Positions 8,481 to 23,250 of a DNA stretch of 24,281 bases are shown here, in pieces. The DNA is from a virus: positions 1-24,281 of IMG/VR virus record IMGVR_UViG_3300042430_000681, one strand, 5' to 3'. Under the pieces are notes generated by a model, which saw only the letters and a list, made by a program, of their open reading frames with translations, was not told where the DNA came from and made no database searches. Numbering within the stretch: position 1 is the first letter of the stretch; every line of letters starts with the position of its first letter. The translations under genes were made by a program, and so were the position numbers.

Positions 8481-9086
8481 TCAAACATTTTGCGCATCTA
8501 AGTTAGATAGCACCATTTTTTTGACGACCTTATGCAATCCTGGATTAACCTTCAAGGCTACAGGCACAAGATGTTTTCTGACATAATTTCTGGTATAAAG
8601 TTCGGACTGATTACTAGTATCTTCTGCCCATTCCAGTGTATGTTTTCTGCACCAATACACAAACTGATCTTTGGTCGTGGTAAGAAATGGTCGATAAACA
8701 TTCTTGTGTTTAGGCAATACGATTTTAGAATTGCCATGCAAACTAGACCACAGATAAGTTTCCACGCAGTCATCAAGATGATGAGCAGTGACCACGTATG
8801 GAAACTGCGCCAGAAACCCATATCGTTGATTGCGCCAGAATTCTTCCCAGCTTTCCGTCTTGGGCTTGCTTGACTTGAGATATCCCTCTGTAAGGGTCAG
8901 TTTATTGCTCTTGCAATATTCACGGACTACTTTTTGTGCGAGTTCACTGTTTTCAGTTCCGTGATGATAGAACGCACAATGCACTTTGTGATTGCGTTTC
9001 AAGAAATCCACGACAGCAAGACTGTCTACTCCACCGCTGAAGGCGACGGTAAGTTCTCGTGGGAGTTTAAACAGTACTTTGATCAT
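8481..9086 (-). CDS. tilS: TilS-like tRNA(Ile)-lysidine synthase, minimal N-terminal-domain form
   Basis: TilS uses ATP to attach lysine to C34 of the CAU-anticodon isoleucine tRNA, so it reads AUA and not AUG. The 201-residue protein has the PP-loop SGGVDS (17-22), TAHHLDDCVETYLW, the RPFL segment and WAEDTSN with the later RNYVRKHLVP. These are TilS-specific signatures of the catalytic domain. It lacks the C-terminal tRNA-binding domains of the E. coli enzyme (over 400 residues), so it resembles the short form known from some bacteria. No tRNA gene was found in the window. The predicted promoter at 9093-9121 would start RNA at or next to the ATG, implying a nearly leaderless message. Confidence 0.85.
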   Translation of the reverse strand: MIKVLFKLPRELTVAFSGGVDSLAVVDFLKRNHKVHCAFYHHGTENSELAQKVVREYCKSNKLTLTEGYLKSSKPKTESWEEFWRNQRYGFLAQFPYVVTAHHLDDCVETYLWSSLHGNSKIVLPKHKNVYRPFLTTTKDQFVYWCRKHTLEWAEDTSNQSELYTRNYVRKHLVPVALKVNPGLHKVVKKMVLSNLDAQNV

Positions 9087-9121: not shown

Positions 9122-9868
9122 CTATTGAAAAATTTGCTTGTTTTTCTTGCCGTATATCTTGATGTACTTTCCTGCAAGTTCGTCCGCTTGTTTTTCAATA
9201 GGAGAACCTGGATAGCTGCTGTTTGGCTCAATTAATCCTAGTTCATGCTGTTTGATATGAACTAGCTCATGACACACTGTTCTTAGAATGTCTACTAAAT
9301 TTCTATTTTTTGCATAAACCCAAATACTACCATCGCCCGGTATCATTTTACCAGTGTGATGATGCTCTTGCGCTTCAGCATGATCTAGACTGAGAATAAT
9401 TTTTGGTATTTGATTGATTTTTAATGCATTAGCTGCCAATTTGACAAATTTAGCAACTTCGTCTTTTTGAAAGTTGATATCCAGCCCTTCGTTCAGTTTC
9501 TTTTTGATCCAAGCATCAGGAGTTTTTCGATACTTTTTGACCCAGAGATCGTGTAATTTTTTCGCACTAATCTTATGCGTTTTAGCGATTTTACGCATGA
9601 GTTTATCAATCGTACCGTAATTGTGTTTAGAAAGACGAGGTAATTTTTTTGCTAGATCGGTAACTGCTGATTCATTGATACTCTCACCGCCGCCCCCACC
9701 GCCGTCTCCAGACCCACCTGAAGAATCTCCAGATGTGCCCCCACTAAAGCCGTAATAGCCAAAGCCAGGATAATAGTACCTGTTTAAAGTTGCTTTCTTC
9801 TTGCTAGCCTTCTTTTTCTTGCGTCGATTGGCTCGCTTGATTTCGATAATAAATTCTTTTGCACGCAT
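9122..9868 (-). CDS. Putative zinc metallopeptidase (HExxH) with capsid-targeting-like N-terminus
   Basis: The 248-residue protein starts MRAKEFIIE, like the T4 internal-protein capsid-targeting sequence whose cleavage follows a [LI]-x-E motif. A Lys/Arg-rich stretch (11-30), a Tyr/Gly/Ser low-complexity linker (31-62) and a helical segment (about 70-125) follow. The end holds CHELVHIKQHE (199-209), the zinc-binding HExxH helix, with EKQADELAG (225-233) likely supplying the third ligand. SINE/S (64-67) and KLNE/G (124-128) could be additional cleavage sites that would release the peptidase domain. Substrate unknown. It may be a virion-borne protease acting on cell wall or host proteins, which is inference. 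The catalytic motif is directly visible. Confidence 0.7.
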   Translation of the reverse strand: MRAKEFIIEIKRANRRKKKKASKKKATLNRYYYPGFGYYGFSGGTSGDSSGGSGDGGGGGGESINESAVTDLAKKLPRLSKHNYGTIDKLMRKIAKTHKISAKKLHDLWVKKYRKTPDAWIKKKLNEGLDINFQKDEVAKFVKLAANALKINQIPKIILSLDHAEAQEHHHTGKMIPGDGSIWVYAKNRNLVDILRTVCHELVHIKQHELGLIEPNSSYPGSPIEKQADELAGKYIKIYGKKNKQIFQ

Positions 9869-10365: not shown

Positions 10366-10372
10366 TATTTAG
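10366..10372 (-). promoter_or_regulatory. Late-promoter-like CTAAATA before the 161 aa gene
   Basis: CTAAATATTAG on the coding strand includes the TAA stop of the thermonuclease gene and forms a small dyad (CTAA/TTAG). It lies just upstream of ATG 10361. It resembles the core of T4-like late promoters and the other CTAAATA sites in this window. Confidence 0.3.
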
Positions 10373-10791
10373 TTGCACCAACTTTTCTTTGCCTCTCCAA
10401 AGTACGGCCTGGCAAAACCAGACTTTATGAGTAGATCTCGGAGACTTTTGCCATTAACGAGTACATCGCCTAATATTCTACCACCAAACTTATCCCATTC
10501 TTTCACAATGATTTGAGTATTTTCTGCATTGTAAACAGTTTCGGTAGTAAACTTGGTGGCTGATTCACCTAGAGTAGCTTCCTTTTTGCATTGTGCTCTG
10601 CCGCCCTTTTCTGGGGTGTCTACTCCATAAATTCTAATCTTTAGTTTATTACCTAATTCAACTGGAAGCCAATCTACTCGTATCTCAACAGTGTCACCGT
10701 CAACGATGCGAACAATTTCGTAGTTGTATGGATTTGCTGATACCGCAGAGCTAGCGAATAGACAGAGCAGGATTAGCAATATCTTCTGCAT
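10369..10791 (-). CDS. Secreted thermonuclease (staphylococcal-nuclease-like, SNase)
   Basis: Residues 1-19 form a clear signal peptide (basic start, LLILLCLFA core, cleavage expected after AVSA). The mature part shows the SNase catalytic pattern: DGDT (31-34), RIYGVDTPE (53-61, with Arg53, Asp58 and Glu61) and FGGR (Arg105), ending GFARPYFGEAKKSWC. Cys68 and Cys139 could form a disulfide after export. The family cuts DNA and RNA with calcium. The signal peptide suggests export to the periplasm, for host nucleic-acid breakdown or exclusion of other DNA. The start shares one base with the upstream stop. Confidence 0.9.
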   Translation of the reverse strand: MQKILLILLCLFASSAVSANPYNYEIVRIVDGDTVEIRVDWLPVELGNKLKIRIYGVDTPEKGGRAQCKKEATLGESATKFTTETVYNAENTQIIVKEWDKFGGRILGDVLVNGKSLRDLLIKSGFARPYFGEAKKSWCN

Positions 10792-11171
10792 TATCGGCGC
10801 TTTGCTCTTCCAGTCTGGCCAGCAACAATAGAGTCGTTAAAATCAACGACACTCTTGACAGCCTTGTCCTGAAGCTGAGCACGCTCCTGAGGCTTGAGGC
10901 TGAGGTAAAGAATCGCAAACTCGCGAAGATCATCCATTGAGGCACGATGCTCTTCGCCGTTCATGAACATCAGAGGAAAATTACCTTCATGATCCATTGC
11001 CTTACGAACCTGCATCAGGATGTTCGGAACAGCATCATTATCCGCATCGTCGGAGGCATCGTCAGAGTCATTCTCGAAATCATCCTCGCGACTCACGCGA
11101 GGCTTACGGCCGCGACGACCCTCGGTAATTTGATTGATGACACTAAGGGCGTTGCGAATTTCGTCGGTCAT
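10791..11171 (-). CDS. Unknown acidic/basic 126 aa protein
   Basis: ATG 11171 is preferred because GGAG lies just upstream. The frame could extend four codons to a TTG at 11183, inside the upstream gene. The ATG and the upstream TGA overlap as ATGA. The protein has a basic patch (EGRRGRKPRVSR), an Asp-rich linker (DSDDASDDADND), a conserved-looking middle FPLMFMNGEEHRASMDDLRE and a helical end KPQERAQLQDKAVKSVVDF followed by a basic tail. It may be a small head or scaffold-associated protein, given its neighbours. No family recognised. Confidence 0.7.
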   Translation of the reverse strand: MTDEIRNALSVINQITEGRRGRKPRVSREDDFENDSDDASDDADNDAVPNILMQVRKAMDHEGNFPLMFMNGEEHRASMDDLREFAILYLSLKPQERAQLQDKAVKSVVDFNDSIVAGQTGRAKRR

Positions 11172-12739
11172 TGTAATCTCCAAGGTAGTGTAAACACAAG
11201 TTCGCCTGTACGTGGGCGTATCATAACACTATCTAAATCTGTGTCAAGCGTATAATTATTTATCTTTGCAACTTTGTTTAGTAGCTCCAGTGTTTTATAT
11301 AGTATCTTGAACCTCGGCGCCGTATAGTTGACATTATCTACAAATTCTGGTCGCTTTTTGACTTTTTCCCAGACTGTTTGCCAGGCCTTGCCTTCTCTAA
11401 TTGCTCTATTCAGCTCATATACTAAGTTTTCTTCAGCACTGTTCTCTGCGATAGGATTCAATTGCTCCATATTGAACATTACATAAGGGGCATTTTTAAT
11501 TTTGATCTCGGAATATTCTTCACCATTGTCTTGCATGAATTTGGGCAGATTAGGTAAATTCGGGTATTTTTTAGTCAGTTCCCAGAATAATCGAATAGCT
11601 TTAGATTCACTTCGATCCGCACTATCTTGCATCAATAGTTTAGCCATTGTTCCCTGATCTTTCATCCATAAGTTGGTGTCTAGCTGCTGATATCCTGCTT
11701 TTTCGAATTTATTGCTGCTTTGAGGCAATTGTTCTAGATACTTTTTTACTTTCTCTAATTCACGATTGTCCAGAGAGTCAAGATGAGCTTTACCTGTCAA
11801 TCGCTTAGTCAATTCAAGAAATTCGGGATCATTGTCCCAAGGAATACCTTTTTTGTCTGCTAGCTGGTGTATATCGTCGGGAGATAGATACTCAGCCTCG
11901 TCCTGATTTTTGAGTTTGCCGCCCAATGCTTTGTTAACGTATGCATCAGTAACTGTGTGATTTTTGCTTATCGCAATACCATATTTTTTTGCAAGATCTA
12001 ATAGAATGTTTGTGTCGGCTGAATTTTCAATAATGGCCGATATTTGAATCTTGCCGTTGGGTTGTTTTTTCACAACAGAAATAACACCGTCTATGCTTTT
12101 GAGATCGCTTTTAAAATCCCTGGTTTTAACATCATCATATTTGATCGGCAAGAACTGAATCTCTTGATAGGAGGTCTCTTCGTCACTAGCTTCATTAGTC
12201 AAATCTCTGAGATGCATTCGTGCTTTCTTTTCATTAACTGGTGTTTCAGGTTCCCAAATGAATGTGTCATCGTCGCGCAGTGTGAATCCTTGATCCGTGT
12301 AAAACTTCCTCAGTTTATCCGCACTGACAGAACCTTTTTCCCATACTTGTCCTTCCAATCCGTAGCCAAATTTTTGTGCCAGAGCTTTCAATTTACTCAT
12401 GCCTATCTTGCCTACGCCACTTTTTGTGGGAACTGCTCTTATAAAGTTTACGTGAACCCAATCACTGCCTAGCTGTGAAGGTGACAGTTGAACTAAGACT
12501 AACTTGTCATCTTCCTGGTGCAGAATGACTTCTTTGAAATTAAGAGGATTGCGCTGATAAATTCCACTGTTATAAATGTGTTTAATTAGCTCGTTTGATT
12601 CTATATTTTTATTTTGCAGTTTTAACACTTCTTCTTTATACGCGATATCGTCTCTTTCGACAGATTCCAGTAAACGAGAAGCGAGATTCTTGGCAGTTAC
12701 CTCGCGTTTGTACTCGACAATTATTTGATGAATCTTCAC
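11168..12739 (-). CDS. Multidomain protein: capsid-targeting-like tag, GNAT acetyltransferase-like domain, helical module
   Basis: The 523-residue protein begins MKIHQIIVE (1-9), a capsid-targeting-like tag. Residues about 93-163 resemble a GNAT domain: VHVNFIRAVP, then the acetyl-CoA loop-like SGVGKIGMSKLKALA, and LRKFYTDQGFTLRDDDTFIW, the usual closing strand. PVNE/K (167-171) is a possible cleavage site. A later module, GIPWDNDPEFLELTKRL with TGKAHLDSL, is a helical unit I associate with large phage proteins. The C-terminal 110 residues, ending SVMIRPRTGELVFTLPW, vaguely resemble a kinase-like lobe without catalytic residues. Function unknown. It may be packaged and act on host proteins, which is inference. 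Confidence 0.6.
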   Translation of the reverse strand: MKIHQIIVEYKREVTAKNLASRLLESVERDDIAYKEEVLKLQNKNIESNELIKHIYNSGIYQRNPLNFKEVILHQEDDKLVLVQLSPSQLGSDWVHVNFIRAVPTKSGVGKIGMSKLKALAQKFGYGLEGQVWEKGSVSADKLRKFYTDQGFTLRDDDTFIWEPETPVNEKKARMHLRDLTNEASDEETSYQEIQFLPIKYDDVKTRDFKSDLKSIDGVISVVKKQPNGKIQISAIIENSADTNILLDLAKKYGIAISKNHTVTDAYVNKALGGKLKNQDEAEYLSPDDIHQLADKKGIPWDNDPEFLELTKRLTGKAHLDSLDNRELEKVKKYLEQLPQSSNKFEKAGYQQLDTNLWMKDQGTMAKLLMQDSADRSESKAIRLFWELTKKYPNLPNLPKFMQDNGEEYSEIKIKNAPYVMFNMEQLNPIAENSAEENLVYELNRAIREGKAWQTVWEKVKKRPEFVDNVNYTAPRFKILYKTLELLNKVAKINNYTLDTDLDSVMIRPRTGELVFTLPWRLQ

Positions 12740-13176
12740 GCTCTTTCTTTTTTAAGTGTTGCACGGAGCATCCAAGCATGCTTTTCATGTGCATCGATGC
12801 GTTCCGCTATGAAGTTCTCAATACCAAATTTCTTTTCTTGACCTGCTAATTCAAAGCAGTGATGCAGACAATGTAACATAATGTCATTGTCATGCAACAA
12901 TTCAGCGAACATGAGTTCCGCGCGAGGAATCAAAAGCTGTCCTTTGATATCAGAGAGTTCAGCAAATCTTTCCAGACTGCCAGGTGAGTAACTGCCTAGA
13001 GTACGAATGTATTCAGCGATCTTGTCAATTGACCCGTTTACTTCGGAATACAGATCACCAAAAAATTCATGATACTGTGGGAAGTTTTCACCTTCGACGT
13101 TCCAATGGAAGTGTTGTGCTTTGATCGCAAATGCATAGCTATTTGCTAGTAATTTTTTTAAACTTTCCGCTAACAT
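12736..13176 (-). CDS. dps: Dps-family ferritin-like DNA-protection protein
   Basis: Dps dodecamers oxidise and store iron and shield DNA from hydroxyl radicals. The 146-residue protein keeps the four-helix pattern and the intersubunit ferroxidase ligands with exact family spacing: H24 in HWNVEGENF, H36, D51 and E55 (12, 15 and 4 residues apart, as in E. coli H51, H63, D78, E82). Also present are YIRTLGSYSPGS and the late helix FIAERIDAHEKHAWMLRATL. The N-terminus is short, lacking the Lys-rich DNA-binding tail of E. coli Dps. An AGGAAATAATT ribosome site precedes the ATG. It overlaps its downstream neighbour by four bases. Confidence 0.92.
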   Translation of the reverse strand: MLAESLKKLLANSYAFAIKAQHFHWNVEGENFPQYHEFFGDLYSEVNGSIDKIAEYIRTLGSYSPGSLERFAELSDIKGQLLIPRAELMFAELLHDNDIMLHCLHHCFELAGQEKKFGIENFIAERIDAHEKHAWMLRATLKKERA

Positions 13177-14153: not shown

Positions 14154-16221
14154 GTTGTTTCTTTATTTCTATTTTTGTTTCTGGATCATTGGCCAAAGCC
14201 ACTTGAGCCAATTGCTCTAAATATGATCGACGGTCATCACGAATTGCTGGCTTACCGTTTACGTATAAAACATATTCGATAGTTGAGGTTTCGACACCTG
14301 AGCTAGATGATTGTGGTATACTGGATTCACGGGGTCTAATTACAGCATGTTGATTGGGAAATTGTTCTTTATATCTTTCTAGTTCCGAACGATCAGAACT
14401 TGTTTTTTTGAGAATACCATCAACATAAAGACTAAATTCTTTATCTTCGGTAGTTATTCCTTTAAGAATTGAACTTTCTGTCTTTTTTTCTAATCTTTTG
14501 AGCTTACTCAATTCACCACGTAGCGGACTATTTCGATTGACTTCTCCTAAGCCAGCAGGTTTAGCTTTGTACTTGCGCATAGCTTGACCTGCACCGCCTC
14601 CAGTGCTGTATATCTGACCTTCGTCCATGTCGTCTCTGGTACTCTCCAGGGCACGCAATTCGTCAGTAAATACTTCGACTAGCTGGTAGACCGCCGACTC
14701 TAGGGCACGCTTCGCAGCGCGAATATCAGATTCGACATCATGTAGCTTGCTAGGATCAATATCAACCTTTTCGGCCAGTTGCTGAATGCCTACGATAATC
14801 TCAGTCAAAGCATCGTCATATCCTATTGCGTTTGTGATTTGTCGAGCTTTTTTAACAGCTTGTTTTAAATCCCATATTCGATCATCACTGTCTGTTTCCA
14901 TGAGTGGCTTTTCTAATATTTTTGTCATAGGACTTTTCTTGATGCCTAATCCAGCACCGCCAACAGTGCCTGCCTGATAACCTTCCTGTACTTTTGATGA
15001 CATATTGTCAGGTATTATAACTATCTGGCCTGATTTAATCATAGGCAGCATTGCACTCTGATACACGAAGTCAGGATCTACGTCGAAAGTTGTTGCCAAA
15101 TGTTTGACCGCATTGTCTATCATGGCTTTAGTAATGTATACTTTGCCGGTCTTAGGATCTTTGAATGGTTCATCGTCTTCCTGAATTGGCTCTGTAACAT
15201 CAGTAGTTGCAATGATCGTGAAGTTTTCAGGATTATCTAAATTATTCAGTTCAGCTTCCGCTGCTTCTAAGCTCGTGAGTCCGGATCGGTATACATCTTT
15301 GGTTCGACGATCCTTGATGCTATACACGTATCTTTTATTAGTTCGATCAGCTTTTTTGTACTCTTCGCTGAACACAAATGGGTCTCTAGGAGGTTTATCC
15401 TTGTATGGCTTAGAGTGATTGTATATGTAAAATACTGTACCTTCTGGATCGGATTCTGCGTCGATGTCAACAATGTCTTTTGCGCCCCAGTTTACGTCAT
15501 CGAACTGCTTTCTTTCTGCGTTGATAGTAAACTCGTCTTTGGTATCAATCGTCATTTTTTCATTATATTCTTTGTTGTTGGGAGTGATGCCTTCTTCAGA
15601 CTTGAATTGTCTCTGTACAGTTTCTGGCTTTCTGCCTCTAATTACGGTAGGTTCTGTTCCAAGTCTGGGTTCACGATGATATTCATCATCTTCTCTGCCT
15701 TCTGGCTCTGTCGGCCAATCTTTTGGAACATAACCTGGCATTCCTGTGTCCCATTCGGCTCGTCCTTTGCTCTGATTCTCGGTGACAGCAGAGTCCAACC
15801 ACTTTAAGTATTCGATAGCAGCACCGCGCATTTTACCGCCAGACGCCTTGATGGCGGCTCTGAGCATCAGTTCTATTCTGCTGATGATAGCAATATATTT
15901 TTTCCACTTGGGGTAGCGACGAATACCGCTCTTTTGCATTTTTGCAATGGAACTCATTTGACCAATAAGGTGCTCCAAAAACTGAGAGTGAGCAAGCGAC
16001 AGTTCTTCGATATCGATTGGCTGGTCCAATAGACGCTTGACCATAGAAAGATACGTTGCTCGATCTTCGTGATAGCGAGTCTCCTTTTTCAAATCGTCTA
16101 GCATCGAAAGCGCCGTTTCCATATCGTTCCGTAGTTCATCAGACTTCAAAATTGACTGCCATTTGGCTAGTCCTTTGCTCTGTTCGCGAACGCTTTTCAG
16201 ACCCTTTATTATGCTACTCAT
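14146..16221 (-). CDS. Large unknown 691 aa protein with repeated modules (probable virion/internal protein)
   Basis: The N-terminal 160 residues are helical and charged (QFLEHLIGQMSSIAKMQKSG, then a YPKWKKYIAIISRIELML segment). A Pro/Glu/Arg-rich linker follows. A middle beta-alpha unit includes NKRYVYSIKDRRTKDVYRSG. Later, KVQE/GYQAGTVGGAGLG and DDMDE/GQIYSTGGGAGQ look like the same Gly-rich module following an acidic cleavage-like site, separated by a coiled-coil-like helical region. The C-terminus carries two divergent copies of a 40-residue unit: EFSLYVDGILKKTSS (595 on) and YVLYVNGKPAIRDD (650 on). No enzyme motif is visible. It overlaps the gene upstream (ATGA) and the small gene downstream. 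Confidence 0.6.
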   Translation of the reverse strand: MSSIIKGLKSVREQSKGLAKWQSILKSDELRNDMETALSMLDDLKKETRYHEDRATYLSMVKRLLDQPIDIEELSLAHSQFLEHLIGQMSSIAKMQKSGIRRYPKWKKYIAIISRIELMLRAAIKASGGKMRGAAIEYLKWLDSAVTENQSKGRAEWDTGMPGYVPKDWPTEPEGREDDEYHREPRLGTEPTVIRGRKPETVQRQFKSEEGITPNNKEYNEKMTIDTKDEFTINAERKQFDDVNWGAKDIVDIDAESDPEGTVFYIYNHSKPYKDKPPRDPFVFSEEYKKADRTNKRYVYSIKDRRTKDVYRSGLTSLEAAEAELNNLDNPENFTIIATTDVTEPIQEDDEPFKDPKTGKVYITKAMIDNAVKHLATTFDVDPDFVYQSAMLPMIKSGQIVIIPDNMSSKVQEGYQAGTVGGAGLGIKKSPMTKILEKPLMETDSDDRIWDLKQAVKKARQITNAIGYDDALTEIIVGIQQLAEKVDIDPSKLHDVESDIRAAKRALESAVYQLVEVFTDELRALESTRDDMDEGQIYSTGGGAGQAMRKYKAKPAGLGEVNRNSPLRGELSKLKRLEKKTESSILKGITTEDKEFSLYVDGILKKTSSDRSELERYKEQFPNQHAVIRPRESSIPQSSSSGVETSTIEYVLYVNGKPAIRDDRRSYLEQLAQVALANDPETKIEIKKQHA

Positions 16222-16967
16222 GATTGTTTTTCCTTTTTCTTAGTCGCTACATTCTTAGCTTTACCCTGCCTATTTGGGTTAGGGTCCTGTCGTCGCTTTC
16301 TCGCTGCGGCGCTAGCTCTGCCTTTCTTACCCAAAGAATAAGCCTTCTTTTGCGGCAAGCATTTGGGTTTACCTTCTTTATTGCTTCCTCTAGCACAATC
16401 TCCTTTGATCTTGCCATCTGGACCAAAGCGAACCCACTTTTCTTTGAACCATTTGCGTAAGTCTTCATTAAGATTTTGATCCTCACTTAAAACTGAGGCA
16501 AAGGAGCTTGGCAATATATTTACACCAGTCTTCTTATACAATGATTTTGTTACAATTACGATGATTTCTGTTATAAATGGTACAAAAAACAGCTTTTTAT
16601 AAATTGCAATCATTCCTACGCCTTTTAAAATATCAAAAAACTGAGCCTTAGCTCTTTTTTTATCATCAGAAGTTAAAGTTTTGTCGCCTTTTGCAATACG
16701 ACTAGCGACACTTAACATATCTTTTGTTTCTTTTGTTTCTTGACTTAATGCTTGCTTGAGTTTTAATGCTTTATCCTTCGTGGAATCTACTTTGTCACGA
16801 AAAGGCATGTATGTCCCAATGTCTAGGCCTATAGGACTTTCATCGATTTTTTTCTTCTTTTTGCCCTGACAATGAGCACGCTGGCTAAACCCGCGAGGCT
16901 TGCCGCAGTCGATGCTGCGTTTGTATTTTTCGCTCCACGCTTCAGTTATAAATTCACTTGCTCTCAT
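16218..16967 (-). CDS. Capsid-tagged protein with LETM1-like hydrophobic segment and Cys-rich DUF5872-like modules
   Basis: The 249-residue protein starts MRASEFITEAW, the best match in the window to the T4 internal-protein tag, with expected cleavage after ITE. Then KRSIDCGKPRGFSQRAHCQG supplies two cysteines. A coiled region and a hydrophobic KLFFVPFITEIIVIVT segment, with a following NILPSSF motif (about 125-155), resemble LETM1-like motifs in phage proteins. NLNE/D precedes LRKWFKEKWVRFG and GDCARG with KPKCLPQKKAYSLGKKGR, resembling DUF5872-type domains. The extremely basic tail suggests nucleic-acid binding. Ribosome site AAAGG precedes the ATG. Its start overlaps the previous gene by 14 bases. 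Confidence 0.6.
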   Translation of the reverse strand: MRASEFITEAWSEKYKRSIDCGKPRGFSQRAHCQGKKKKKIDESPIGLDIGTYMPFRDKVDSTKDKALKLKQALSQETKETKDMLSVASRIAKGDKTLTSDDKKRAKAQFFDILKGVGMIAIYKKLFFVPFITEIIVIVTKSLYKKTGVNILPSSFASVLSEDQNLNEDLRKWFKEKWVRFGPDGKIKGDCARGSNKEGKPKCLPQKKAYSLGKKGRASAAARKRRQDPNPNRQGKAKNVATKKKEKQS

Positions 16968-19047
16968 TTTTTGCCTTTATCCATACTAATAGTTGATCAA
17001 AGGCTTCTTTACCACCGTCCATTGCGAAAATTTCCTGTTTGATCTGCTTGATTTCATTGGACAATGCAATTGCTTTTTTATTTTGTCCCATATATAGTGC
17101 GGTGTCACGCTGAGTACTTTTTAGTACCCATTGATCTAAGAGATTTTGAAGTCCCTTCCCATACATCGCTCTTGCTTTTGTTTTTACTGGTTGCTGTGAT
17201 TCTTTTACCTTGGATTTTTTTCCCCAGTTCTTTGCGCCTACTTTACGACACTTGACTAATGCACCACTCGCATAAGCTGATGGCCAGACTTTGTAACGGC
17301 TCTTGACTTTATAGTAGCAAGCGTCTTTCTTCTCGTTCATTAGTTCTTCGCTGACCATCTTGCCGCCGCAATGTGGGCATTTCTTTTCTGATGGTCTAGG
17401 ACTTGATGTCGAGGTGTAAGAACTTTTTGGTTCAACAATATCTAGTGTGGTCTTGCGATCTGTGCCTAATTCATCACGCCATTTTTTGAATACGGAATCG
17501 TTGTCTGTCCCTTCCGCCACACCTTGCTTGTCACTCTTGTTAATCAAATCAATGTTACCAAACTGACGAAGATGTTTTATCGTGTTACCAAGATGATGGT
17601 GATAATCTGGATCGTCTTTACTGACACCATTTTGTGCTAATAATTTTTCAGCATGACGATGTGTTGGCATTTCTTTCTTCAATAGTTCTGGAGCGCCTTC
17701 CGCCACGCCTTGCTTGTTTACCCTGTCAACATATGCTCTTGCCTGATCCATTGTTTTGAATTGTCTCGCTTCTTTGTCAACCCAATAACTATCACCTCGG
17801 AGAGTGTTATGCTTGAATACTTGAACTTGAACTGTTGGCGTTGGCGCAAACCTCATGATACGAGCCCGCACAGTTCCTTCCTCTGGTTGGGTATCTTCGG
17901 AACCTTCCGCCACACCTTCTTCAAAATTGCTCATGCCACCAGCTAAAACCCCGCCAGTCATTTCCTTCATTTGCTTGGGTTGACCGGTAAAAGGATTTTC
18001 TCCATGAGCTAAACGACGTAATCTGTTTCCATGTCTTATATTCTTGCTGGCTAGCTTAGCGTCTTCAGGACTGAGATTTTTCTGATCTTCCAAATCCCAG
18101 CCGTATTGCACTTTATCAATTCCCTCTGACCCTACTCTATCTAATATGGTAGGATCCATATTACGTAGCATTGTTTTTAATTTTTGTCTTATTGATGCTT
18201 CCTCATCAATTGGCATCTTCTGATCAAAATCTCGATGTTGCAAGTATTCTCTAACAGAGTTCAAGTAATCGTTTGCTTTAATAATCTTTTCTTGAACCCA
18301 GCCCTCTAATCCTTGAGTTTCAGGAACATCTCTTATAATTTTGTAGATTTCGGTAGCATTTTTTGCTGCTTGGAAAAGATCGCTCTTTGCCATTTCAACT
18401 TCATGATCGGTGCGATTGTGCTTTGGTAGTAAACCAGGTTTCAATCTGTGACCTTGACCCGGAATAATGATCAAATCTTGTTCGTTGATTTCTCTTTCAT
18501 GTAGAGTCTGTGGATCAAACTCTTTTTTGGGTACCATGTATTCGAAATCAGTCTCATCGTCTTTAAAATAAATCAAATCATTATCTATGTTAGTTATAGT
18601 TGCACTAGACATCAGTAATCCAGTATTGGGATCATGAAATTCAAGACGCTTTCCTACCGCGGGTACGAAGGGCTGATAGACTTTGGGCACCTTCTTATTA
18701 GTTTGTTCACTCACAGCTTTTTGATCTTCGCGATCTTGCTGCGCTTTTTCTGCCCGATCTAGCCAATGAGAGGGAGGAGTTGCTTTTTTAGTTCCTCTAT
18801 AACCTCTTTCCCAAGCAGCAGCACCTTGCTTTGCAGTTTTTCCTCTTCTTACAAAATAATCTATTACCTGCTGCTTTGAAGCAAATTGGGGAGATTCATA
18901 AAACTTCTTTGTAGTTTTCTTACCCTTGAACATGCTGCCTGCTCTCTTGTGCATCTTTCCTAGACCTTGAGCAGGCGCACCGCCACCTACTGATCCGCTT
19001 GTAGTAGTTTCTGCGACCTTCATTGACTTTTTCTTAGTTCTCATCAT
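16954..19047 (-). CDS. Candidate packaged polyprotein with three VAE/G junctions, a zinc ribbon and DUF5872-like module
   Basis: ATG 19047 is chosen because AAAGGA lies just upstream. The frame extends to 19134 with no ribosome site. The 697-residue product begins MMRTKKKSMKVAETTTSG, then SVGGGAPAQGLGKMHKR, and holds helical modules (DHEVEMAKSDLFQAAKNATE, then GLEGWVQEKIIKANDYLN). It then has three near-identical (KQ)GVAEG junctions at E381, E450 and E512. These bound units of 69 and 62 residues and a final 185-residue unit with CPHCGGKM (zinc ribbon) and a RYKVWPSAYASGALVKC segment. VAE/G matches the style of T4 gp21 head-protease sites. No enzyme motif seen. Cleavage and packaging are inference. 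Confidence 0.6.
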   Translation of the reverse strand: MMRTKKKSMKVAETTTSGSVGGGAPAQGLGKMHKRAGSMFKGKKTTKKFYESPQFASKQQVIDYFVRRGKTAKQGAAAWERGYRGTKKATPPSHWLDRAEKAQQDREDQKAVSEQTNKKVPKVYQPFVPAVGKRLEFHDPNTGLLMSSATITNIDNDLIYFKDDETDFEYMVPKKEFDPQTLHEREINEQDLIIIPGQGHRLKPGLLPKHNRTDHEVEMAKSDLFQAAKNATEIYKIIRDVPETQGLEGWVQEKIIKANDYLNSVREYLQHRDFDQKMPIDEEASIRQKLKTMLRNMDPTILDRVGSEGIDKVQYGWDLEDQKNLSPEDAKLASKNIRHGNRLRRLAHGENPFTGQPKQMKEMTGGVLAGGMSNFEEGVAEGSEDTQPEEGTVRARIMRFAPTPTVQVQVFKHNTLRGDSYWVDKEARQFKTMDQARAYVDRVNKQGVAEGAPELLKKEMPTHRHAEKLLAQNGVSKDDPDYHHHLGNTIKHLRQFGNIDLINKSDKQGVAEGTDNDSVFKKWRDELGTDRKTTLDIVEPKSSYTSTSSPRPSEKKCPHCGGKMVSEELMNEKKDACYYKVKSRYKVWPSAYASGALVKCRKVGAKNWGKKSKVKESQQPVKTKARAMYGKGLQNLLDQWVLKSTQRDTALYMGQNKKAIALSNEIKQIKQEIFAMDGGKEAFDQLLVWIKAKNESK
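17510..17922 (-). repeat. Three copies of a near-identical 14-22 bp element encoding VAEG
   Basis: Copies at 17510-17531, 17696-17717 and 17903-17922 share GTGGCGGAAGG on the coding strand. The first two share 22 positions with a single mismatch. All are in the same frame, spaced by 186 and 207 bases (62 and 69 codons). Identity at synonymous positions, with divergent sequence between copies, suggests recent duplication or recombination at these junctions rather than protein-level constraint alone. Confidence 0.8.
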
Positions 19048-19144
19048 ATTATTTCCTTTAATAAATGCCATTGGTTTCTCTTTAATACAGCGAATACATT
19101 GTTTGTTGGAACGACCGACTACCACATTTGTCATGGTTATAATG

Positions 19145-20166: not shown

Positions 20167-23100
20167 TTATTTTTCTTCCGTATAATCAGTACTTTCCGCA
20201 ACATCAGACTTACGCACATTCATCTTTTTTACCAGAGCTTCGACTTTGTCTAGACGCGCAATGATCTCTTCCATTCTGATTTTGACTTCTTCGCTATCCT
20301 CTTTACTATGCTTAAGACTTCGTGTAACGAATTTTGCAAATGCTTCTTCTTCTGTTTTGGCCATTGGATAATGCTGTTTGGCAAAGTCCATGGTCATGCG
20401 ATACTCAGGATCAATGTCTTTTGAAAAGGTGCCACTGTCCGTTCTACGATCAATTACCGACGGTGAGATGTCTAAATCCTTTTTGGCCTCTTCCATCAAC
20501 CTAATGAGCTTACGGCGTTGCGCAGGTGTTGCATTAGGGATAGCATTCTTGACATTGGTCACGAATTCTTTTAGTTTTTGTTTGTTCATGTTCATACCTT
20601 TATTAGTTAACTTCATTAGTTTTTCTATGTATTTTTGACCCAATTTACTTAGATCGAATGCATTGACCCATTTATCTAATTTATCTTCTGGAGTCAGATT
20701 TTGATCTTTCAAATGATTTCGCAGATCAGTGAACGTAATGCCAGTTCCGCCTGACTCTTGATCTCTAGGAGTTCCAATTACGTTGAATTTTACATGATCG
20801 AATCCTGGATATTTTGGGTTTTTTAAACGTCTGGCCAGATGATTCATCAACCCCTGAAATCCCTCTGATCGGTCATTACCTACCATCATTACGATATGAT
20901 CATATGGCGGTGGATTACTACTGGTAATCAATTCTTTTTCAATTTTCTTACCTATTGATCCGTCTGGTCTTACCAATTGAAAGATATTTTTGTGCTGAGG
21001 ATATAACGTTTGCCAGGTCTTTAGCTTGACTCTAGGTTCGATGGGATCATCAGGACCCACGGTACTTGTAATGTATACATATGGATCTGCTCCGAGTTCT
21101 GCTGCTTTTTGCAAGACCGAATTCACAAGCTGTTGATGACCTTTGTGTCCGACAAAGCTTCCAGCAGTGATCAGTGCTATCTTTCCTGACTTTGGACCAG
21201 ATGATGTTGCTGACTGCTGCTTTTGCTGCATCGCTGCTTTCATGGCAGGACTGGTAATTTTAATAGGGCCAGACTTGGTATGCAGAATGATACCTTCGAA
21301 TTCTGTGCCCAATATGTCTTTACCTGAAATATCAGAGGAGTTGATGAGAATCTCAGCAATTTTGTTCTTAGCTTGCAGCAACACTTGACTTACGTGTTCT
21401 TTGTCTGACTTATCTCTGGAAGCCAATTTTGCTCTGATGTCGTTCAAATCCATATCTTGTAATGCAACAGTTACGTCGATTGATCTTGGAATCTTTGCTC
21501 TGTTGTTTAAAAACAACACATCATCTATACGCTTTAGATTGCAAAGTTTATCAACTATAATTTTGCTATTGGAACTGATCTTGCCATTAGAGGATCTGAT
21601 TACATGAAGAGGAACAACAACCAAGTTGATGCCTTTAGGTATATCGTAAGCCAGATTTATGAATCGATAGCGATTGCCTTCTTTTTCGGCCATAGGCAAG
21701 TAGAGCATTTCACATACTACTTTTTTGTCTTTAAGAAAATCTTCACCAAACGTTGCGTTCAACTTTGAGATTAATCCCATGATTTCGTCATAAAGTTTGT
21801 CGTATTTCTGTGCTCTGTCAACTGTGACTGGATTGATGACTCCCTTGCTCGCCACATACTGAGAAAATGCATTTCTGGATTGAATAGGACCGCTTTTGCT
21901 ACTTTCGAAGAACGGCCTGCCTTGCTGATCTTTACCAAATCTACCGCCTATACCGTCTATTTTCACGGTAATCGGCATACGTCTTATTTCCCATCCCCTG
22001 TCTGTTTTGATTGAATCCAAGAATTCCAGAAACGCTCGATCACTCATTTTTTCCAAGTGAGTGATGCTTTGCTTTTTTGTAGGAATTACTGATTCTTGAA
22101 GCTTGCTTGCCATTCGATAATTAGTCTGATAAGCTTGCACTCGCTGATTAAAATCGGCAGGTAACTCTAGTTCAAGACCTTGAAATAAGGTTCTTATAGC
22201 TGGTATCTTCTCTTTTAGATCACGATCAGGATCATTTTTATACAGTCCTTGAGCGCCTGTATCAATGGTTTTAGCTAGAAACGCATCAGCAACCTGCTTT
22301 TTTCTTTCTGGCTTTAGTATCGCGTTGAGTACGCTGATTAACCCAGTAAAGCTCCAGAATGCAGTTTTTATTTTTTCCGCTTTCTCCGGCCTTAATTGTG
22401 GAAGAAGTCTAGTAACAATTTTGGCAATATCCTGTTCATAATCGCCAGCAGGAGCACGATTCATGACCATCATGCCATTCTTGATCAAGGGTTTGCCAGT
22501 TTGAGTATCTATGACAGGTTTATATTTGTCTCGTAGTCCACCGCCTGCTTTTGCCGAAACAGCAAAAGAAAGCTGATTATCAATCATAGGTTTATCTAGC
22601 TCGGCTCTGTTACTTCCTCTGCCAGCCATTTTGCGAAGAAGAAATTGTTTTTTACTTAATGAAGTAAGAGATTGAATCAAAAATTTATGAAAAACGCCTT
22701 TGATACCTTTTTCCATGTCACGCCATGCACTTGAATGACTGAAAATAGACCAATCAGTTGGTCCATTCTTATCAAATTCCACGAATTCAAAGTCAATCTG
22801 TATATTCAGATTGCTTCTAGGAAAATTCCATAGCGTACTAAACTGTTGATTGCCCTTTTTAAATCCTATAAAAATCGCTGGTCCAACTTGTTTGTCTATT
22901 AATCGATTGAAAAGATCAGCAAGATCAGCCTGCTTCTTTCGGTCGATCATTACGTCAATGTCGCCGACTTTTGGTTTTACTGCTTTGAAATCTCTATCAG
23001 GTATTTTATTCAGATTAAAAAAATGCCTTGAAGAACCACTTAAAAAGTTTTGAGATTCAAATACTTGTGAGTCCCACAACGGCCTGTTATGTAAAGATTC

Positions 23101-23250
23101 GTAAGTTTTATTGATCGAGCTGAACAGTCTGGTAAGTTGTTCAATTGTTTTGCTACGATCTACCTGGGTTAAGTCGATAGGATTAGCGTTGTGACCTCGC
23201 ACAGAAAGATTTCCGCCTTCAATAAGTATTGTCTTTCTATGCTTCATCAC
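20167..23250 (-). CDS. Triple nucleotidyltransferase-like fusion: Pol-beta-type, ligase-type (KxDG) and HxGH adenylyltransferase-type
   Basis: The 1027-residue protein has three visible nucleotidyl-transfer signatures. First, a Pol-beta/MNT-like fold: GDIDVMID (96-103, D97 and D99) plus D153 in IQIDFEFVE. Second, a covalent nucleotidyltransferase (ligase-like) segment: KIDGIGGRFG (430-439, K430), FFESSKSGP, CEMLY (E514), EGIIL (652-656) and IKI (K664). Third, a nucleotidylyltransferase: GSFVGHKGHQQL (698-708, HxGH) and GITFTDLR (837-844) like the ISSTxLR of NMNAT or CoaD enzymes. The ligase-like part resembles a large conserved phage family (DUF6267-like). The start MMKHRKTILIEGG and the VAES near the C-terminus resemble protease sites. 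Reaction unknown. It may concern NAD or RNA/DNA repair, which is inference. Confidence 0.65.
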   Translation of the reverse strand: MMKHRKTILIEGGNLSVRGHNANPIDLTQVDRSKTIEQLTRLFSSINKTYESLHNRPLWDSQVFESQNFLSGSSRHFFNLNKIPDRDFKAVKPKVGDIDVMIDRKKQADLADLFNRLIDKQVGPAIFIGFKKGNQQFSTLWNFPRSNLNIQIDFEFVEFDKNGPTDWSIFSHSSAWRDMEKGIKGVFHKFLIQSLTSLSKKQFLLRKMAGRGSNRAELDKPMIDNQLSFAVSAKAGGGLRDKYKPVIDTQTGKPLIKNGMMVMNRAPAGDYEQDIAKIVTRLLPQLRPEKAEKIKTAFWSFTGLISVLNAILKPERKKQVADAFLAKTIDTGAQGLYKNDPDRDLKEKIPAIRTLFQGLELELPADFNQRVQAYQTNYRMASKLQESVIPTKKQSITHLEKMSDRAFLEFLDSIKTDRGWEIRRMPITVKIDGIGGRFGKDQQGRPFFESSKSGPIQSRNAFSQYVASKGVINPVTVDRAQKYDKLYDEIMGLISKLNATFGEDFLKDKKVVCEMLYLPMAEKEGNRYRFINLAYDIPKGINLVVVPLHVIRSSNGKISSNSKIIVDKLCNLKRIDDVLFLNNRAKIPRSIDVTVALQDMDLNDIRAKLASRDKSDKEHVSQVLLQAKNKIAEILINSSDISGKDILGTEFEGIILHTKSGPIKITSPAMKAAMQQKQQSATSSGPKSGKIALITAGSFVGHKGHQQLVNSVLQKAAELGADPYVYITSTVGPDDPIEPRVKLKTWQTLYPQHKNIFQLVRPDGSIGKKIEKELITSSNPPPYDHIVMMVGNDRSEGFQGLMNHLARRLKNPKYPGFDHVKFNVIGTPRDQESGGTGITFTDLRNHLKDQNLTPEDKLDKWVNAFDLSKLGQKYIEKLMKLTNKGMNMNKQKLKEFVTNVKNAIPNATPAQRRKLIRLMEEAKKDLDISPSVIDRRTDSGTFSKDIDPEYRMTMDFAKQHYPMAKTEEEAFAKFVTRSLKHSKEDSEEVKIRMEEIIARLDKVEALVKKMNVRKSDVAESTDYTEEK

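Follow-up and report, generated by a model that had tools for sequence, protein, structure and literature searches.

A probable cassette polyprotein in an uncultured, T4-like jumbo phage: a conserved DNA junction for module shuffling and a putative head-protease site

The window analysed here, a 24,281-nucleotide stretch of viral DNA (IMG/VR record IMGVR_UViG_3300042430_000681), carries a gene whose product is divided by repeated VAE/G sequences (the slash marks a predicted cut) into units of different sequence, which raises the question of whether one gene could supply several separate proteins to the virus particle and of what keeps the repeated sequence constant. The original prediction had described the product as a packaged, possibly self-dividing polyprotein with sites of the T4 gp21 type. 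The results showed that conservation of the junction extends to its DNA and that modules are shuffled across many viruses by crossover at it, a larger finding which that prediction had missed, and the encoded residues suggest that it is probably a head-protease site as well.

Layout of the polyprotein gene

Translation of the window placed the gene on the minus strand and confirmed the four VAE sites and the two unit lengths of the original prediction, whose coordinates gave the right span without its strand (Table 1). Because the TTTSGSV which follows KVAE aligns with leader-bearing relatives (MKITHIISE/TTTSGSV in L107 and MRFNQIVE/TTTAGSV in L047), KVAE/T is probably a leader cut site; the leader of the window protein itself, MRTKKKSMKVAE, is not a typical one. 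The all-alpha segment of the N-terminal block (EINEQDLII...DHEVEMAKSDL...EGWVQEKI) is common to more than 30 relatives, with the coverage peak at residues 221-280, and two relatives (L218 and L219) begin at the same junction as module 1.

Table 1. Features of the polyprotein gene and of leader-bearing genes in the window
Feature	Position	Strand	Basis or remark
Modular polyprotein gene	16954..19047	-	translation; 697 aa, or 726 aa from an alternative upstream ATG at 19134, 29 codons earlier
KVAE/T site, E13	19009..19020	-	near N-terminus; alignment with relatives' N-termini
N-terminal block T14-E381	17905..19008	-	includes all-alpha segment
Junction 1 DNA core, ...EEGVAE/G (E381)	17903..17924	-	translation and DNA pattern
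Module 1, beta-alpha unit G382-E450, 69 aa	17698..17904	-	relatives' starts
Junction 2 DNA core, NKQGVAE/G (E450)	17696..17717	-	translation and DNA pattern
Module 2, His-rich helical unit G451-E512, 62 aa	17512..17697	-	relatives; predicted structure
Junction 3 DNA core, DKQGVAE/G (E512)	17510..17531	-	translation and DNA pattern
C-terminal block G513-K697	16957..17511	-	translation; relatives' coverage
DUF5872-like basic module KKDACYYKVKSRYKVWPSAYASGALVKCRKVGAKNWGKK	17209..17331	-	inside C-terminal block; phrog_727, cyanophage matches
Next gene, leader MRASEFITE/A, then AWSEKYKRSIDC...GFSQRAHC module	16218..16967	-	leader/junction alignment, offset 0
Candidate packaged protein, leader MRAKEFIIE, HELVH metalloprotease-like motif	9122..9868	-	sequence; inference
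Candidate packaged protein, GTG start, leader MKIHQIIVE	11168..12739	-	sequence; inference

Searches of the window protein against Pfam and NCBIfam gave nothing above cut-off. The zinc-ribbon/DUF5872-like end of the original prediction was borne out in part, in that the zinc ribbon (CPHCGGKM) and the DUF5872-like end both score below the Pfam cut-offs (DUF5872 reached 20.7 bits in one relative in comparison to a cut-off of 27.5), but the C-terminal part matches phrog_727 (E = 2.7e-22) and has matches in more than 300 cyanophages. The proposal that unit boundaries would fall at the VAE/G sites agreed with an AlphaFold model of residues 360-620, in which all three junctions lie in segments of pLDDT below 50 and the core of the His-rich module is predicted with confidence to be helical (pLDDT 84-94), although the model is weak overall, with a mean pLDDT of 57. 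Among viral structures, Foldseek gave no match to the junction region at E < 0.001, and the full-length alignment of the fragments was poor.

Several other genes of the window, all on the minus strand, were also recorded. The gene at 20167-23250 encodes a multidomain protein of 1027 aa, part of which is cytidylyltransferase-like (phrog_3041), and proteins resembling it bear GVAEG junctions elsewhere, such as in L077, L101 and L142. A small nuclease at 10369-10791 bears a signal peptide of the Sec type (MQKILLILLCLFASSAVSA), matches the thermonuclease family of NCBIfam below cut-off and adjoins the candidate packaged proteins, and a gene similar to the Dps/ferritin-like one at 12736-13176 (Pfam Ferritin, E = 3e-26) is found again close to junction genes in L173 and L183. 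An IMP dehydrogenase/GMP reductase-like gene (1449-2570) and a PP-loop (TilS-like) gene (8481-9086), both recognised by eye, are possibly host-derived metabolic genes.

A conserved DNA core at the borders of shuffled modules

The junction is a sharply bounded DNA core of about 20 nt (AAGCAAGGTGTGGCGGAAGGC), with conservation ending abruptly on both sides; its codons in the window are AAGCAAGGYGTGGCGGAAGG at two sites and GAAGAAGGTGTGGCGGAAGG at the third. With up to three mismatches, the pattern CAAGGNGTGGCGGAAGG occurred three times in the window in comparison to 0.07 expected, a count reached by none of 100 shuffles, and as a control the reversed pattern gave one match over 19 contigs, while the real pattern was present in 18 of the 19. 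A scan of IMG/VR found the exact 20-nt pattern in at least 119 contigs, and in all of the stretches listed the KQGVAEG frame lies inside a long open frame. A degenerate KQGVAEG pattern in the same scan order added 26 loci to the 54 strict ones (80 among the matches listed). In the fetched loci, 283 unique contexts of the exact core were in open frames and three outside.

The valine and alanine codons of the junction were GTG and GCG in fractions of 0.92 and 0.93, in comparison to backgrounds of 0.24 and 0.12 in the same frames, values which are in part selected by the search pattern itself; at 509 sites other than the fetching site, GTG was found 366 times and GCG 361 times. For pairs of the same module with less than 75% nucleotide identity, synonymous third positions agreed in 83% at the junction in comparison to 52% within the module. 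Only four contigs from 84,980 prokaryote genomes contained the core, three of them in unrelated-looking frames, and the junction is therefore a viral element. One exact core lies in a 5-kb contig binned as Bacteroidetes (L159, GTDB MAG contig CANHJA010000172.1), which is possibly a misbinned phage contig. No description of the junction was found in the literature searched, preprints and most subscription journals being outside the reach of the search.

Splitting the frames at the junctions, of which a single ORF has up to eight, yielded 434 internal modules in 242 families, with a median length of 73 aa (quartiles 61-115). At least two different neighbour pairs were observed for 54 of the 242 families, and 13 for one of them. 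In pairs with swapped neighbours, identity was about 0.3 directly outside the core and high in the core and module (144 on the left and 131 on the right). The His-rich module of the window, with 25 relatives in IMG/VR, recurs beside many different neighbours, and its relatives at 93-97% amino acid identity share about 95% nucleotide identity in the module and 0.2-0.4 in the flanks. In addition, a whole module with one junction was gained or lost between L209 (order A-C) and L122 (A-B-C), and a tandem module duplication was seen in a comparison of L148 with L133. Domains recognised in modules include GNAT and ParB_N in L078 and TonB_C in L119, and multiple unrelated domains occur in one polypeptide, as in polyvalent proteins. 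The commonest module had no match in 50,697 phage records.

Residue constraint, leaders and export signals at the junction

T4 gp21 cuts after L/I-x-E (PMC9026906), and VAE/G conforms to the cut-site motif of a gp21-type substrate, phi-x-E before a small or variable residue. A head-protease site is the probable role of the junction, because P1 Glu and an aliphatic P3 are kept in decayed junctions, leaders and junctions replace each other without a shift in register, Tat and Sec signals begin immediately after junctions, the junctions fall in low-confidence linkers of the predicted structure, and related contigs carry gp21, gp22 and gp23. These five lines support the original prediction as far as one gene with several units at head-protease sites is concerned, whereas the cleavage, packaging and delivery it proposed stay at the level of prediction.

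For junctions with a single mutation, the changes in the Glu codon were synonymous in eight cases and non-synonymous in one, in comparison to 82% amino acid changes expected (p = 9e-6). P3 was V, I, L or M in 99%, 99% and 96% of junctions with one, two and three mismatches, the last class including some chance matches, in comparison to 93%, 85% and 78% under neutrality, while P4 and P1' vary freely in mutated junctions and the flanking Gly is not preserved. Purifying selection in mutated junctions is thus on P1 Glu and aliphatic P3 only, which is phi-x-E, the gp21 rule. The junction has Val at P3, whereas T4 uses Leu or Ile; Val at P3 is also found in leaders of the same viruses, such as MRAQEFVPE and MRASEFVSE.

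Capsid targeting by IPIII needs no more than its first ten residues (PMC9026906). Alignments of leaders against junctions had offset 0 in 13 of 52 cases (one a self-match), and the next commonest offset had three; for example, the module of the gene next to the polyprotein gene, which begins with MRASEFITE/AWSEKYKRSIDC, follows a junction in exact register in L178 (VAE/AWSEKYKKSINC). A leader-like N-terminus, defined by a motif chosen after looking, was found in 38 of 86 junction ORFs in comparison to 3% for the internal control. Packaging of the product in the head, predicted from these sequences, is the weakest step. Junction-bearing cytidylyltransferases appear, by motif and by phrog_3041, to be homologous to a family detected in cyanophage virions (PMC3037559).

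Twin-arginine signals of the form E[IV]DRRGFLKG were found in 27 distinct contexts, which are homologous and hence not independent, nearly all inside long frames; a phi-x-E site lies within three residues upstream in 17 of the 27, and L/I/V-x-E directly precedes [IV]DRR in all of them, the Glu but not the aliphatic residue being part of the query. Passengers include, in these Tat modules, LysM with transglycosylase (SLT) domains and M48 peptidase, and also TonB_C domains. Sec-like signals follow GVAE/GWKD (sequence GVAE/GWKDVVAGGAMALGALGA). A protein of 1000 aa would have no use for an internal export signal unless it is cut there, and these signals therefore support cutting at the junction. 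The argument rests on the Tat and GWKD families, because the concentration of hydrophobic segments in general at module starts is weak (6 in comparison to 3.1 expected, p = 0.07). A stand-alone gene, MKITE/IDRRGFLKG... (L226, 5451-6335), has a Tat signal with LysM and transglycosylase domains, and its Tat start also occurs behind junctions in other contigs.

The original prediction had proposed a check for a gp21-like protease in the genome, and this search gave no match in the 24-kb window record, but a gp21-family protease (PF03420, E = 1e-25 to 1e-29) was found together with gp23 in 6 of 19 long junction-bearing contigs. The head genes of these relatives are in the T4 order gp68-gp21-gp22-gp23, with core and scaffold proteins; the nearest solved structure to their gp21, which is 209-214 aa long in L163 and L167, is the T4 protease 5jbl, and in their gp23 an L-x-E/[ASNT] site lies shortly before the part that aligns with mature T4 gp23*. 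Neither gp21 nor gp23 was detected by protein search in the other 13 long contigs, which like the window record are possibly fragments, apart from a weak partial gp23-like match in G019. The most likely cutter is the phage's own gp21-family head protease, and the term self-dividing found no support.

The window DNA polymerase is 70-72% identical to those of several junction-bearing contigs and 42-48% identical to those of the jumbo phages Phosso, Atu_ph07 and XaC1, cultured relatives in which the junction was not found. Strings of small basic modules lie between gp16 and gp17 in the cyanophages P-RSM4 (L223, 5058-6816) and ACG-2014f (L224, 5185-6843), with the same modules (KKDACYxKVK... and CWxGYxxxG...) and a MYYQDFIKLVEG leader but without the GVAEG DNA core; to judge from these sequences, they are possibly an ancestral form.

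Alternative readings, known systems and a proposed mechanism

A core that is kept at synonymous positions and bounds swapped modules could also be only a DNA recombination or mobile-element site (integron attC-like or an in-frame palindromic element), with VAEG an uncut linker. We regard this as unlikely, as decayed junctions keep the phi-x-E residues and not the Gly beside them, junctions take the place of capsid-targeting leaders in register, export signals sit right behind them, and a tyrosine or serine recombinase (PF00589, PF00239) was found in none of the 19 long contigs. An integron-type cassette or site-specific recombinase was rejected on the same recombinase result and on the core itself, which is not palindromic and has no conserved flank after it. 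The simplest mechanism would be general recombination between short repeats of shared sequence, with the enzyme a putative one; a RecA-family protein was found in 7 of the 19 long contigs. It is decidedly improbable that a dedicated, unrecognised recombinase or homing nuclease acts on the core in place of general homologous recombination: the sharp bounds and always single orientation of the core and a GIY-YIG-like ORF near one junction gene (L173, recognised by eye) would fit such an enzyme, but the recombinase search and the lack of a palindrome speak against it, as does the presence of general recombination proteins.

Polyvalent proteins also combine many unrelated domains in one polypeptide and are likely packaged and injected, and some are processed, such as DdrB and DarA of P1, with the processing of DdrB ascribed to its own peptidase domain; the consulted portion of that source mentions neither a conserved DNA junction nor a repeated head-protease site (Iyer et al. 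2017, PMC5512222). In phages and plasmids, such proteins can have as many as 15 domains (PMC5512222), and the modules here include GNAT and ParB_N. We nevertheless give little credence to an ordinary, uncut structural or injected multidomain protein of this type, with conserved flexible linkers and duplicated repeats, as ordinary linkers would neither keep the GTG-GCG codons across unrelated modules nor place signal peptides internally. A chance or compositional repeat, or an assembly artefact, is already refuted by the excess of sites in the window, the reversed-pattern control and the occurrence of the core in contigs from different samples.

By analogy, the system would resemble the internal proteins of T4, except that it would be a polyprotein, and also the polyvalent proteins, except that its cut and crossover sites would be standard ones. 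At the polymorphic ip loci of T-even phages, short conserved sequences reportedly adjoin variable internal-protein genes and are said to have been proposed, by Repoila et al. in EMBO J in 1994, to promote shuffling. Short conserved sequences beside variable units are found here as well, but the ip units are whole genes between promoter-containing repeats, whereas here sub-gene modules are joined in frame at a probable protease site. We know of no counterpart to a genetic cassette system for sub-gene modules. The likeness to IPI-III and Alt of T4 lies in the leaders M[KR]xxEF[IV]xE/ at gene starts, including those of the three leader-like window genes, in the phi-x-E/ protease rule, in the small variable proteins, and in the presence of gp21, gp22 and gp23 in relatives (PMC9026906). 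In T4, however, each gene encodes one small protein from which the cut frees the leader (Alt is also trimmed C-terminally), whereas here one ORF has several modules, predicted internal cut sites and a conserved DNA junction. Resembling the scheme predicted here, packaged ejection proteins of SPN3US and phiKZ are cleaved behind the Glu of a short motif by a homologue of gp21, but the cuts described remove propeptides, and the term polyprotein is not used (PMC5694885). Recent shuffling of protein fragments is also described for phage domain mosaicism, in a paper that does not discuss linkers, proteases or internal proteins (PMC10684548).

On balance we think it likely that the product of the window gene is a cassette polyprotein made by an uncultured, T4-like jumbo phage, with a DNA core for module swapping and VAE/G for gp21-type cutting. 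Each cassette would consist of one module, unrelated to the others, about 60-115 aa long and with [K/E]QGVAE at its end, and the core of about 20 nt would provide homology, repeated both inside a genome and from one genome to another, where general recombination by the phage would swap, duplicate, insert or lose modules in frame; the shuffling and its breakpoints at the core are observed, and the recombining enzyme is presumed. VAE/G would serve as the cutting site for a gp21-type prohead protease, a role predicted from the observed residue constraint and leader equivalence. The product would join the prohead core. As the head matures, it would be cut at its leader and at its junctions, and the separate small proteins would stay in the head and be ejected with the DNA. 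In relatives, judging from the signal peptides, some modules may then be exported by the host Tat or Sec pathway and act on the envelope. Taken further, to combinatorial delivery with 'plug and play' modules, for which we see an even chance, one 20-nt coding sequence would be both crossover point and head-protease site in a clade of such phages, and a module placed between two junctions would automatically be translated, brought to the head by the leader it shares with the other modules, released by cutting and injected, with Tat- or Sec-bearing modules further exported to the host periplasm.

If this is true, the virus particle could receive several separate proteins, in a set that can change, from one gene, which would explain how giant phages could quickly exchange injected proteins with their genes unbroken. 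The same code would be conserved as DNA for swapping and as protein for cutting, and to our knowledge this would be the first known case of a protease site doubling as a recombination site. The 20-nt core would also be a sequence tag by which hundreds of candidate anti-defence or envelope-acting modules could be collected from metagenomes, and the role and diversification of internal head proteins, an old question, would become directly testable.
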